Source: Oscillospiraceae bacterium
GTDB lineage: Bacteria > Bacillota > Clostridia > Oscillospirales > UBA929
DNA: 54,422 nucleotides
Direction of reading: 5' to 3'
NCBI GenBank assembly: GCA_009780275.1
Contig: WRAI01000016.1
Location: 1 to 54,422, forward strand
Numbering within the stretch: the first letter of the stretch is position 1; the number at the start of each line of letters is the position of its first letter. Of this stretch, positions 34,430 through 37,831 are shown piece by piece. The notes under the pieces are model-generated. The model saw only the letters and a program-made list of their open reading frames with translations, was not told the DNA's origin and searched no databases. The translations under genes were made by a program, and so were the position numbers.

Positions 34430-34459
34430 CGACCTTTTCGCAAAAGTCGCGATTTTTTT
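34430..34459 (+). terminator. Terminator of the dxs-recN cluster
   Basis: CGAC-C-TTTT / AAAA-GTCG around CGC, followed by CGATTTTTTT. Confidence 0.8.
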
Positions 34460-34481
34460 CGTTTGTGAGCGTAGCGAGGGC

Positions 34482-34510
34482 TTGACAGGAAAAGTTTTCT
34501 GTGATATACT
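34482..34510 (+). promoter_or_regulatory. Promoter of the small transcript upstream of tyrS
   Basis: TTGACA, a 17-bp spacer and TATACT. The last part of the spacer (TTCTGTGA) is shared with the promoter ahead of glyA at 36355-36383. Confidence 0.8.
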
Positions 34511-34541
34511 GCCACCATCTTTTGAAAAAGAGGGCATTGCC

Positions 34542-34592
34542 ATGACACGCAACAACGTTTTCGGGACGGGGAACTATTACTGCAAGGAGTAA
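34542..34592 (+). CDS. Candidate 16-aa leader peptide with tandem tyrosines
   Basis: The short frame MTRNNVFGTGNYYCKE starts 25 nt after the expected transcription start, with GAGGG upstream. Two adjacent Tyr codons (TAT TAC) occur about 500 bp ahead of tyrS and before a terminator. CGCAACA at 34548-34554 can pair with TGTTGCG at 34603-34609. A second frame begins at 34592 as TAATG, but with poor SD spacing. No family is known; the call rests on layout only. Confidence 0.35.
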   Translation: MTRNNVFGTGNYYCKE

Positions 34593-34637
34593 TGGTAATT
34601 TGTGTTGCGCGGCATAGTAGCTCGGAAGAGTGACGAC

Positions 34638-34670
34638 ACCACACAGATTACGGATCTGGGTGGTATTTTT
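34638..34670 (+). terminator. Terminator of the small transcript / possible attenuator
   Basis: ACCAC-A-CAGAT pairs with ATCTG-G-GTGGT around TACGG, then ATTTTT. With the promoter at 34482 this bounds a transcript of about 155 nt. Confidence 0.8.
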
Positions 34671-34765
34671 GTTTGGGGAAATGTTAGTGTAGAAAATGTA
34701 TATGAGGGTCACTTCACGGGCTACACGGACGACAATCCCATAAACAAGCAGGAGGCTATTTCACT

Positions 34766-35026
34766 ATGAAAAAGTATGTTAAATACGGCGTTATCGCAAC
34801 TTCACTCCTTGTTGTAGTCATTTCGTTGCATTCTCTGATTGCTGGCACATATATGCTGTTCCGAGTCGAGCAATCGCTAGTTGTGATGCTTTGGTCACTG
34901 CTTTGGGGTTGTGATTATTGGCGGAAACGTAATGATGGAAAATCCAATAGAATATATCCTTACATTTGGTTTGGCATGGCACTGCTGTGGCTTATGACCT
35001 TGTTGAGTGGCTTGGGATTGTATTAG
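34766..35026 (+). CDS. Small hypothetical membrane protein
   Basis: An 86-aa protein with three hydrophobic segments (GVIATSLLVVVISLHSLIAG, LVVMLWSLLWG, IWFGMALLWLMTLLSGLGLY) and little soluble sequence. SD GCAGGAGG, 9 nt before the ATG. Family not recognised. It lies between the attenuator-like transcript and tyrS, and may be read together with tyrS. Confidence 0.65.
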   Translation: MKKYVKYGVIATSLLVVVISLHSLIAGTYMLFRVEQSLVVMLWSLLWGCDYWRKRNDGKSNRIYPYIWFGMALLWLMTLLSGLGLY

Positions 35027-35116: not shown

Positions 35117-36358
35117 ATGACATTATTTGAAGAACTCAAAGCCCGCGAAATTATCGCACAAACATCGGGTGACGATGAGGTTGCCGAGCTGATTAACAAC
35201 GGTAAGGCTGTATTCTATACAGGGTTTGACCCGTCTGCCGATAGCTTGACCGCAGGGCATTTTGTGCCGTTGACGTTGATGAAACGCCTGCAAAGTGCGG
35301 GCAACAAGCCTATTGTATTGACCGGCGGCGGCACGATGATGGTGGGCGATCCATCGGGGCGGACGGATATGCGCTCGATGTTAACCATTGATGATATTCG
35401 CGCCAATGCTAAGAGGTTTCAAGCGCAATTCGAGCGGTTTATGACGTTTGGAGACGGCAAAACTGACGCTATGGCGGTGGATAATTCCGATTGGCTGATG
35501 AAGTTAAATTATTTAGACTTCTTGCGCGACATCGGTGTGCACTTTTCGGTCAATCGCATGTTGGCTGCCGAATGCTACAAAAACCGCATGGCGCAAGGCT
35601 TGACGTTCCTCGAATTCAACTACATGATTATGCAAGCGTACGACTTTTACCATCTCAATGAGCAGTTTGGATGCAACTTGCAGCTTGGCGGCGACGATCA
35701 ATGGTCAAATATATTGGCGGGTGCCGACTTGGTGCGGCGCAAATCGGGCAAACAGGCGCATGCGTTGACCATTGCATTGCTTTTGACGCATGACGGGCAG
35801 AAGATGGGAAAAACGCAAAAAGGCGCGTTGTGGCTGGACAAAAGCAAAACATCGCCATATGAATTTTTCCAATTTTTCCGCAATGTGCATGACGATGATG
35901 CCTTGCGCTATCTGAAACGCCTGACCTTCGTGACGATGGACGAAATTCGTGAATACGAGGGGCTGACAGGCAGTGCTGTCAATGAAATCAAGGAGCGGTT
36001 GGCGTTTGAAATGACGGCGATGGTGCATGGCGGGGAAGAGGCCAACAAGGCAAAAGAAACGGCACGTGGGCTATTTTCAGGCGGCGCAGCGGAAACCATG
36101 CCGTCAACGGAAATCACGGCGGCGCAATTGATGGACGACGCGCTGACCGTCATTGACGCGCTGGTGCTGTGTGGCATTGCCAAGTCTAAAGGTGAAGCAC
36201 GGCGACTAATAGAACAAGGCGGCGTGACAGTGGATGAGCAGAAAGTGGCCGATATTGCGCAGACGATAGCGCGGGAAGTATTGCAAAACGGCGTGGTGTT
36301 GCGTAAAGGTAAAAAAGTTTACCACAAAATTACGTTGAGAGGCCCAATAAACCTTTGA
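35117..36358 (+). CDS. tyrS: Tyrosyl-tRNA synthetase
   Basis: A 413-aa class I aminoacyl-tRNA synthetase. The N-terminal catalytic domain has FYTGFDPSADSLTAGHFVPL (HIGH-like HF motif), the GGDDQWSNILAG tyrosine/ATP segment, and KMGKT as the KMSKS equivalent. The C-terminal S4 domain (SKGEARRLIEQGGVTVDEQK) binds tRNA. SD AAGGAG before the ATG. Its stop codon is part of the -35 of the next promoter. No T-box was found upstream. Confidence 0.96.
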   Translation: MTLFEELKAREIIAQTSGDDEVAELINNGKAVFYTGFDPSADSLTAGHFVPLTLMKRLQSAGNKPIVLTGGGTMMVGDPSGRTDMRSMLTIDDIRANAKRFQAQFERFMTFGDGKTDAMAVDNSDWLMKLNYLDFLRDIGVHFSVNRMLAAECYKNRMAQGLTFLEFNYMIMQAYDFYHLNEQFGCNLQLGGDDQWSNILAGADLVRRKSGKQAHALTIALLLTHDGQKMGKTQKGALWLDKSKTSPYEFFQFFRNVHDDDALRYLKRLTFVTMDEIREYEGLTGSAVNEIKERLAFEMTAMVHGGEEANKAKETARGLFSGGAAETMPSTEITAAQLMDDALTVIDALVLCGIAKSKGEARRLIEQGGVTVDEQKVADIAQTIAREVLQNGVVLRKGKKVYHKITLRGPINL

Positions 36359-36383
36359 CATGCGGCGAATTCTGTGATACTAT
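36355..36383 (+). promoter_or_regulatory. Promoter of the glyA leader
   Basis: TTGACA (36355-36360) overlapping the tyrS stop, 17-bp spacer, TACTAT (36378-36383). The resulting leader before glyA is about 190 nt long. Confidence 0.75.
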
Positions 36384-36417
36384 CAAGGTTGTGCAAATCA
36401 AACAAGGAGATACGCTT

Positions 36418-36471
36418 ATGACAATTAAAATGCAATTGATGATTGAATTCGTGACGGCGTATCGAGGGTGA
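36418..36471 (+). CDS. Candidate 17-aa leader peptide ahead of glyA
   Basis: MTIKMQLMIEFVTAYRG, with a very good SD (AAGGAG, 8 nt before the ATG) in the glyA leader. GTATC/GATAC can pair around its stop. No Ser/Gly/Thr run is present that would suggest classic attenuation. It may be a small membrane-associated peptide or a regulatory leader. Confidence 0.4.
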   Translation: MTIKMQLMIEFVTAYRG

Positions 36472-36583: not shown

Positions 36584-37831
36584 ATGCTAATTCAACAAGA
36601 AATTGATTATATCAAGGCCAAAGACCCTGCGGTGGCGGACGCCATTACTGCCGAGCTGCAACGCCAGCGCAGTCACGTTGAGCTGATTGCCAGCGAGAAT
36701 TTTGTCAGTGAAACGGTGCTTCACGCCGTCGGTTCGGTATTGACCAACAAGTACGCCGAGGGCTACCCCGGCAAACGTTATTATGGTGGTTGTCATTGTG
36801 TTGACGTGATGGAAGACATTGCGCGTGATCGTGCTAAAGAGCTGTTCGGCGCGGGACATGCCAACGTGCAATCGCACAGCGGTGCATCGGCCAATGCGGC
36901 GGTGCATTTCGCACTTGTCAAGCCGGGCGATACCGTGCTGGGTATGGATTTAGCCCATGGCGGACATCTGTCGCACGGTATGAAACTGAATCTCAGCGGC
37001 AAGCATTACAATGCAGTGTTCTACGGCGTTCGTGAGGACAGCTGCTTGATCGACTACGATGAAGTGCGCACCATTGCCAAGCGCGAACAACCTAAAATGA
37101 TTATCGCCGGTGCGTCGGCGTACCCGCGGATCATTGACTTCAAAGCCTTTGCCGACATTGCTAAGGAGCTGGACATTCCGCTCTTTGTCGATATGGCACA
37201 TATTGCCGGCTTGGTTGCGGCAGGCTTGCATCCGTCACCCATTCCACATGCGCGAGTGACGACGACGACGACACACAAGACATTGCGCGGACCGCGTGGT
37301 GGTATGATTTTGTGCAATGAAGAGGACGGCCCGCTGTTTGATAAAGCCGTCTTTCCCGGACAACAAGGCGGCCCGTTGATGCATGTTATCGCAGGCAAAG
37401 CCGTGGCGTTTGGCGAAGCATTGCAGCCCGATTTTAAGGTGTACCAGCAGCGTATTTTAGACAACGCGCAAGCATTGTCTAAAGCATTGTTGGCTAAGGG
37501 CTTTGATCTTGTTTCCGGCGGCACCGACAATCATTTGATGCTGGTAGACTTGCGGCCGTTCAAAATCACAGGTCGTGAGATGGAAAAACGTATGGATGCT
37601 GTGCATATTACAGCGAATAAGAACGCCATTCCATTTGACCCCGAAAAGCCGTTTGTGGCAAGCGGTGTACGGCTGGGTACGCCTGCCGTTACAGCACGTG
37701 GATTTACTACGGCGGACATGGAAACGGTTGCCGATTGCATCTATATGACGGCAACTGATTTTGAAAACAAAAAGGCAGAGATTGTAGCGACAATTGACGA
37801 GCTTTGTGGGCGGTATCCGTTATACGCATAG
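36584..37831 (+). CDS. glyA: Serine hydroxymethyltransferase
   Basis: A 415-aa PLP enzyme interconverting serine and glycine and charging tetrahydrofolate with one-carbon units for purines and thymidylate. Hallmarks: [31 protein letters not shown], and the PLP lysine in [14 protein letters not shown]. Normal length and start; SD AAGGAG. Confidence 0.97.

Follow-up and report, generated by a model that had tools for sequence, protein, structure and literature searches.

The general view is that Clostridia use T-boxes to sense aminoacyl-tRNA, while leader-peptide attenuation is the classical mechanism of the enterobacterial trp, his and phe attenuators, which are ribosome-mediated and share a three-segment layout. 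Which of these devices controls tyrS in an Oscillospiraceae bacterium? We addressed this question in a 54,422-nt stretch of contig WRAI01000016.1 (the window). An initial annotation, made from the letters alone, had proposed that ribosome stalling at the Tyr codons of a mini-ORF governs read-through into tyrS, as an alternative to the T-box. Our analysis indicates that 34482-34670 is very probably a ribosome-mediated transcription attenuator of tyrS, and that it was probably copied, as a cassette, from an aroF-type attenuator.

All the parts that had been named, namely promoter, 16-codon ORF with adjacent TAT TAC, internal helix and terminator, were recovered by sequence inspection, promoter scanning and folding, and all lie on the plus strand. 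The promoter (34482-34510) is of the sigma-70 type with an extended -10 (TGn), reads TTGACA-17-TATACT with 11 of 12 matches, and was the top of nine sites in the 5 kb scanned, where shuffles predict 5.2. Between it and the terminator lies a short ORF led by the Shine-Dalgarno sequence GAGGG (34530-34534), as in leader-peptide attenuation. This leader ORF (34542-34592) starts with ATG at 34542, encodes MTRNNVFGTGNYYCKE in 16 codons, carries TAT at 34575 and TAC at 34578, and stops with TAA at 34590. The tandem cognate codons (34575-34580) sit in the 5' arm of the first hairpin (34573-34596), in which 34573-34581 pairs with 34588-34596. Antiterminator segment 2 (GTAATTTGTGT, 34595-34605) starts 5 nt past the initial T of the TAA and can form 11 bp (-13.6 kcal/mol) with segment 3 (ACACAGATTAC, 34641-34651). 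The latter falls within the 5' arm and loop of the intrinsic terminator hairpin (34639-34663; arms 34639-34648 and 34654-34663), making the two structures mutually exclusive. The hairpin is followed by TATTTTTG, with the T tract running to 34670. A fold-based scan recovered the terminator at -12.6 kcal/mol; it was absent from a simple terminator scan, presumably because its stem contains one A-G mismatch. The fold of 34515-34675 contains both the codon hairpin and the terminator hairpin and reaches -46.3 kcal/mol (z = -2.63), a value equalled by 2 of 200 shuffles.

The next synthetase gene is indeed tyrS, tyrosine-tRNA ligase (35117-36358, plus strand; TIGR00234, 387.6 bits, cut-off 113.8), which fits the tyrosine codons of the leader, though an 86-codon ORF without family matches (orf86; 34766-35026, plus strand) intervenes. 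This ORF had gone unmentioned in the initial annotation. A promoter of tyrS itself beyond the terminator had been named as evidence that would speak against attenuation; the promoter scan listed no plus-strand promoter-like site from 34671 to tyrS.

We then considered whether a T-box, or another tRNA- or ligand-binding leader, controls tyrS, the mini-ORF being incidental. T-boxes are common at this position in relatives. In a related family, f13, which we infer from tyrS nucleotide similarity to be akin to Oscillospiraceae and Flavonifractor records, 11 of the 20 tyrS loci scanned have one directly upstream (13 matches overall, two of them about 1 kb off). Three of 19 other tyrS loci from outside the genome under study have one within 200 nt, and two more have one further away. 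At 20 further tyrS loci, 14 of them from the bacterium's own family, no T-box was found at gathering score. The window, however, holds no Rfam T-box match at gathering, and so no RF00230 match upstream of tyrS; a permissive local scan gave one unrelated match (E 2.2). The single T-box-like match in the genome (53 bits, below cut-off) lies ahead of leuA (NF002991 above cut-off). Moreover, the related leaders described below keep their reading frame and codons. A T-box was therefore rejected as the controller of this leader, and we regard control by any such binding leader as extremely improbable. Thus, the proposal of an alternative to the T-box agrees with both the window and the many f13 loci that do carry one.

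A DNA search of 57 genomes, including the one under study, matched the attenuator to a second site in its own genome. This copy lies about 155 nt ahead of aroF (DAHP synthase; NF006421 and TIGR01361 above cut-off) and has a like promoter, a Shine-Dalgarno sequence, a near-identical terminator and a YYYFF-bearing leader, MERSNAFNFGYYYFFTK. The similarity extends from promoter through terminator: a blastn block joins window positions 34457-34670 to 1364-1582 of the aroF locus (L003; 68% over 225 columns, E 5e-12) and takes in a plus-strand segment ahead of the promoter (34457-34481) common to both copies. A 22-nt tract, AGTAATGGTAATTTGTGTTGCG, is identical in the two leaders, and GTAATTTGTGTTGCG was found exactly twice in the genome. 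In the hairpin zone, the tyrS copy has two Tyr codons and one Phe codon, and the aroF copy three Tyr and four Phe. A chance origin of the tyrS unit is ruled out by this second copy and by the family of leaders in other genomes. The T-box-like match ahead of leuA (G000:C1:59360-59573, minus strand; L153) lies back to back with the aroF attenuator. The same search also returned matches in one other genome (G021), which belong to an unrelated dispersed repeat and were not accepted as leader copies. That repeat contains a CCCTCTTTAAAAAAGAGGG hairpin, has ten matches (L002, L004-L012) and looks MITE-like by eye.

To define the family, a covariance model (R1) was built from the tyrS and aroF copies. 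In 295 genomes of the order, R1 found these two copies and matches in three f13 genomes, each directly ahead of aroF with, by eye, a tyrA-like gene behind it. One weak false match (G104, L200) was rejected, as it overlies a coding region. A second model (R2), built from these five leaders, matched 106 of 300 f13 genomes (E <= 0.1; 120 places) and 15 of 391 genomes of the class, the one under study included (E <= 0.01). R2 gave no third credible copy in the latter genome, two weak matches there (L309, L310) being rejected as copies. We fetched 105 copies, comprising the best 90 of the 120 f13 places and 15 class places from other genomes; three of the 105 were R2 training sequences. Of these copies, 80 precede aroF (blastp to the AroF of the genome under study, E <= 1e-5), counting one assigned on 83 residues only, its gene being cut by the contig end (L231). 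The others precede prephenate dehydratase/pheA (5), aroB (2), a PaaK-like CoA ligase (3), an ABC substrate-binding protein that is nearest TrpX yet under its cut-off (9) and SSF symporters (4), leaving two without a gene assignment (L237, at a contig end, and L304). Among the 25 non-aroF copies, the gene family was confirmed by hmmscan for 11 and assigned by N-terminal resemblance for the remainder. None of the 105 has tyrS downstream. Rfam 15 at gathering gave no match in 20 loci of this leader family.

The association with aroF was also seen without a model. When loci were scanned, in their correct orientation, for a short Tyr/Phe-rich ORF with a terminator behind it (score >= 4), 26 of 42 aroF loci were positive, among them that of the genome under study and one that is probably chance (L190), and none of the 69 tyrS loci was; a further locus of each gene was left out for its short upstream sequence. 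Excluding the loci of the genome under study, 25 of 41 aroF loci and 0 of 68 tyrS loci were positive (Fisher p 4e-14). The tyrS locus analysed here was the sole tyrS locus to score 3, the best of the tyrS set.

We next asked whether the leader ORF is under constraint in the family. Row counts of 100 in the following leave out a spurious reverse hit (L206). In the Tyr/Phe frame, an ATG-started ORF crosses the hairpin arm in 98 of 100 rows and a Shine-Dalgarno core is present in 96, versus ORFs in 8 and 8 rows and Shine-Dalgarno cores in 0 and 1 for the other two frames. In the hairpin zone, every one of the 100 rows carries 3-9 aromatic codons; the ORF of each copy was picked for aromatic content, whereas the frame comparison tests all three frames. 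With its two Tyr codons in this zone, the tyrS leader is poorer in aromatic codons than most of the family. In 40 of 100 rows, including both copies of the genome under study, the stop codon lies exactly 5 nt ahead of segment 2; in the others the distance ranges from -15 to +45. The choice between Tyr and Phe codons tracks the downstream gene, judging from the codons in the hairpin zone. The Tyr share of Tyr plus Phe codons is 0.52 for aroF (75 rows; 0.43 in the aroF copy of the genome under study), 0.67 in the tyrS leader (two Tyr, one Phe), 0.28 for prephenate dehydratase (5 rows), 0.00 for aroB (2), 0.20 for the PaaK-like ligase (2), 0.52 for SSF symporters (4) and 0.68 for the ABC protein (9). 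The three Phe-side groups differ from aroF with p 6e-6 and the ABC protein from aroF with p 0.004, both values being too small because the rows are related.

These data bear on whether the leader might instead work through its nascent peptide, as an arrest peptide, and not by the slow decoding of its Tyr codons. An M-x-R-x-N start is common to the two leaders of the genome under study, which speaks for such a peptide. However, the residues that they share fall in pairable nucleotides (GCAAC with GTTGC), the leader peptides of the family have little in common beyond their Tyr/Phe content, and the usage of Tyr versus Phe follows the gene. We therefore consider an arrest peptide very unlikely and retain slow Tyr decoding as the preferred reading.

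The annotation had suggested structure covariation among relatives as a check, and the codon hairpin, terminator and antiterminator were all found to co-vary. The alignment comprised 101 matches, from 98 of the 105 fetched loci, both copies of the genome under study and the reverse hit of L206. The codon hairpin helix was 92.4% paired over the 101 rows, with both-side changes at 8 of 10 pairs, and the terminator helix 96.4%, with such changes at 9 of 9. Together, these two helices had 94.2% of cells paired and 251 double-changed cells, where shuffles gave 78.9, in an alignment that was fitted to that structure. At one codon-hairpin pair, 44 rows have A-U and 48 have U-A or U-G; according to the alignment, this is where the second position of a Tyr (TAT) or Phe (TTT) codon pairs with the opposite arm. 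The antiterminator pairing was outside model R2, and all 101 rows were used for its pairing counts. Here, 80.1% of cells are paired, whereas slid versions reach 37-54%, and 45 cells are double-changed versus 13.8 in shuffles. The number of antiterminator pairs with double changes is 6, a count that 77 of 500 shuffles also reach and that speaks against covariation; pairs close to the loop form less often, and indels blur the alignment there. In terms of duplex energy, cognate segments reached -14.0 kcal/mol versus -9.8 kcal/mol for permuted ones (z = -13.6, 0 of 20000). These values come from the 63 non-redundant rows among 98 used; the reverse hit of L206 and two rows whose segment 3 is short were left out.

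We then modelled the switch by folding with a 29-nt ribosome mask in a transcript cut ahead of the 3' arm of the terminator. For the tyrS leader, the antiterminator value was 0.87 with the ribosome stalled at the first Tyr codon, 0.02 with the ribosome at the stop codon and 0.50 without a ribosome. The family means, over 82 of the 100 rows, were 0.65, 0.09 and 0.25, respectively, and the stalled value exceeded the stop value by more than 0.2 in 65 of the 82 rows, the reverse being seen in one. In the cut tyrS transcript the antiterminator thus already stands at 0.50 without a ribosome, so control may be leaky. In the full-length tyrS leader at equilibrium, the terminator wins in all states at 0.87, even with the ribosome stalled; therefore, the tyrS switch would have to be kinetic.

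Ribosome stalling at the Tyr codons as the control of read-through, as first proposed, is the best explanation of the aroF paralogue, the Tyr/Phe family, the co-varying antiterminator, the conserved frame and the folds of the transcript cut short of a full terminator, which behave as expected. In this mechanism, RNA polymerase would start at the promoter and a ribosome would begin the leader peptide. With ample Tyr-tRNA, the ribosome would reach the TAA and cover segment 2, whereupon the terminator would form and transcription would stop. When charged tRNA-Tyr is scarce, the ribosome would stall at TAT-TAC and the codon hairpin would open. Segment 2 could then pair with segment 3, the terminator would not form in time, and orf86-tyrS would be transcribed. 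Mechanism and three-segment layout would be like those of enterobacterial trp, his and phe attenuation, though the genes differ.

How the device came to tyrS was examined by searching R2 over 150 tyrS loci, which placed the element at the locus of the window alone. One more match had E 0.5 and lay at the far end of its locus. Eleven of the loci hold less than 600 nt upstream, three of them less than 250 nt, so the element could be missed at those 11. In the genome sets searched, the bacterium under study was the sole representative of its genus. Lack of conservation of the mini-ORF had been named as a point that would count against attenuation: among tyrS orthologues it is indeed not conserved (1 of 150 loci), whereas the element itself is conserved across the family. 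AroF of the genome under study (L003:1740-2744) shares 77-82% identity with its counterparts in three genomes of g157, a genus in f13, and groups with them at 100/100 in a tree, apart from 14 AroF rows of its own family. Its TyrS, on the other hand, is only 51-53% identical to those of g157 genomes, which suggests that aroF arrived by horizontal transfer, attenuator included. The leaders closest to that of tyrS, and about equally so, are a g157 leader (L205; 0.645) and the aroF leader of its own genome (0.637). Judging by these similarities, the tyrS cassette may have been copied from that aroF, or both copies may stem from a g157-like donor. The entire cassette, promoter included, would thus be a copy of an aroF-type attenuator found in this genome and in many f13 genomes.

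The assembly also holds a second tyrS gene (G000:C6:12343-13551, L192; TIGR00234, 45% identical), which is either a paralogue or an assembly contaminant. No leader was seen at this gene on contig 6; its start lies right at the end of a preceding ORF without NCBIfam match. Could the attenuator copy ahead of tyrS in the window, then, be a duplicate that is passive or in decay and always terminates, with tyrS driven otherwise (by recN read-through or an unrecognised promoter) or the second tyrS carrying the load? Such a duplicate would account for the presence of the element at tyrS in one genome, and the second gene, the intervening orf86 and a full-length fold that favours termination are in keeping with it. 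However, promoter, Shine-Dalgarno sequence, ORF, codon hairpin, antiterminator and terminator are all retained, the two Tyr codons and one Phe codon suit tyrS in comparison with the three and four of the aroF copy, and no plus-strand promoter-like site separates terminator and tyrS. We consider a passive duplicate unlikely and favour an active attenuator, whose control would extend through orf86 to tyrS. There, the cassette seems to do what a T-box does in many relatives.

Taken together, these results make it fairly likely that an undescribed, class-wide family of Tyr/Phe leader attenuators governs an aromatic amino-acid regulon in Clostridia (aroF, pheA, aroB, the PaaK-like ligase, and the TrpX-like and SSF transporters), with codons tuned to each gene, and that a portable, promoter-bearing cassette of this family was copied ahead of tyrS in one lineage, where it took the place that a T-box has in many relatives. 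An aromatic regulon here appears to use enterobacterial-style leader peptides. The aroF-type cassette at a synthetase gene is an example, which can be traced, of one tRNA-sensing device in the position that another occupies in relatives, and the match of codon to gene makes specificity directly testable.

The tyrS leader is a known kind of element, a ribosome-mediated attenuator, at a new address; our searches of the open-licence literature returned nothing on either a tyrS leader peptide or this Tyr/Phe attenuator family of Clostridia. Among the closest precedents are the attenuators with His leader peptides at the hisS/hisZ paralogues of bacilli, where leader peptides replace T-boxes at hisS (PMC2965389). 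Like the tyrS leader, these involve Firmicutes, a synthetase gene, similar attenuators at two genes and a T-box elsewhere; they differ in sensing histidine, whereas the tyrS leader concerns tyrosine and has its sister copy at a biosynthesis gene, aroF. The uORFC-13-1 motif ahead of aroF has 24 representatives, described only from Acholeplasma and environmental sequences (PMC8632094). Compared by description only, it resembles the present family in having a short ORF with Phe codons, a promoter, an RBS and a terminator before aroF, and differs in its host, Acholeplasma, and in lacking a tyrS member. The uORFC-8-2 motif of the same survey, ahead of cysS in Rhodobacterales, shares tandem cognate codons (Cys) in a stem, a terminator and a cognate synthetase gene with the tyrS leader, but belongs to Alphaproteobacteria and to cysteine (PMC8632094). 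Classical attenuators at the synthetase genes trpS and leuS were reported for Streptomyces in a survey of Actinobacteria; they differ in host group and in concerning Trp and Leu, and the survey concludes that T-boxes are the RNA control of tyrosine genes (PMC1262725). His operon attenuators in Firmicutes, including the C. difficile group and Erysipelotrichales (PMC9413887), likewise have a leader peptide, a terminator and an antiterminator, but serve histidine genes with three to five His codons. A leucine-rich attenuator peptide is described in S. aureus (PMC5794164), and putative attenuators of unstated type have been tabulated for tyrA operons, including those of Firmicutes (PMC1173090).

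Several members of the family are of interest for the genes behind them. Tyr-rich attenuators stand ahead of the TrpX-related ABC substrate-binding protein at nine loci (L213, L244, L247, L259, L267, L274, L275, L284 and L286), suggesting that this transporter carries tyrosine. At three loci (L257, L268 and L277), RYWFWFYF leaders, with Trp codons added, precede an SSF symporter, which is possibly a general aromatic amino-acid transporter. Phe-rich attenuators ahead of the PaaK-like CoA ligase (L232, L271 and L308) link this enzyme to phenylalanine metabolism.

Finally, a neighbouring observation was made in the window at 36355-36471, ahead of glyA (36584-37831, SHMT). This segment has a promoter-like site, TTGACA-17-TACTAT, and a Shine-Dalgarno-led mini-ORF of 17 codons, MTIKMQLMIEFVTAYRG, with three Met besides the start or at the start.
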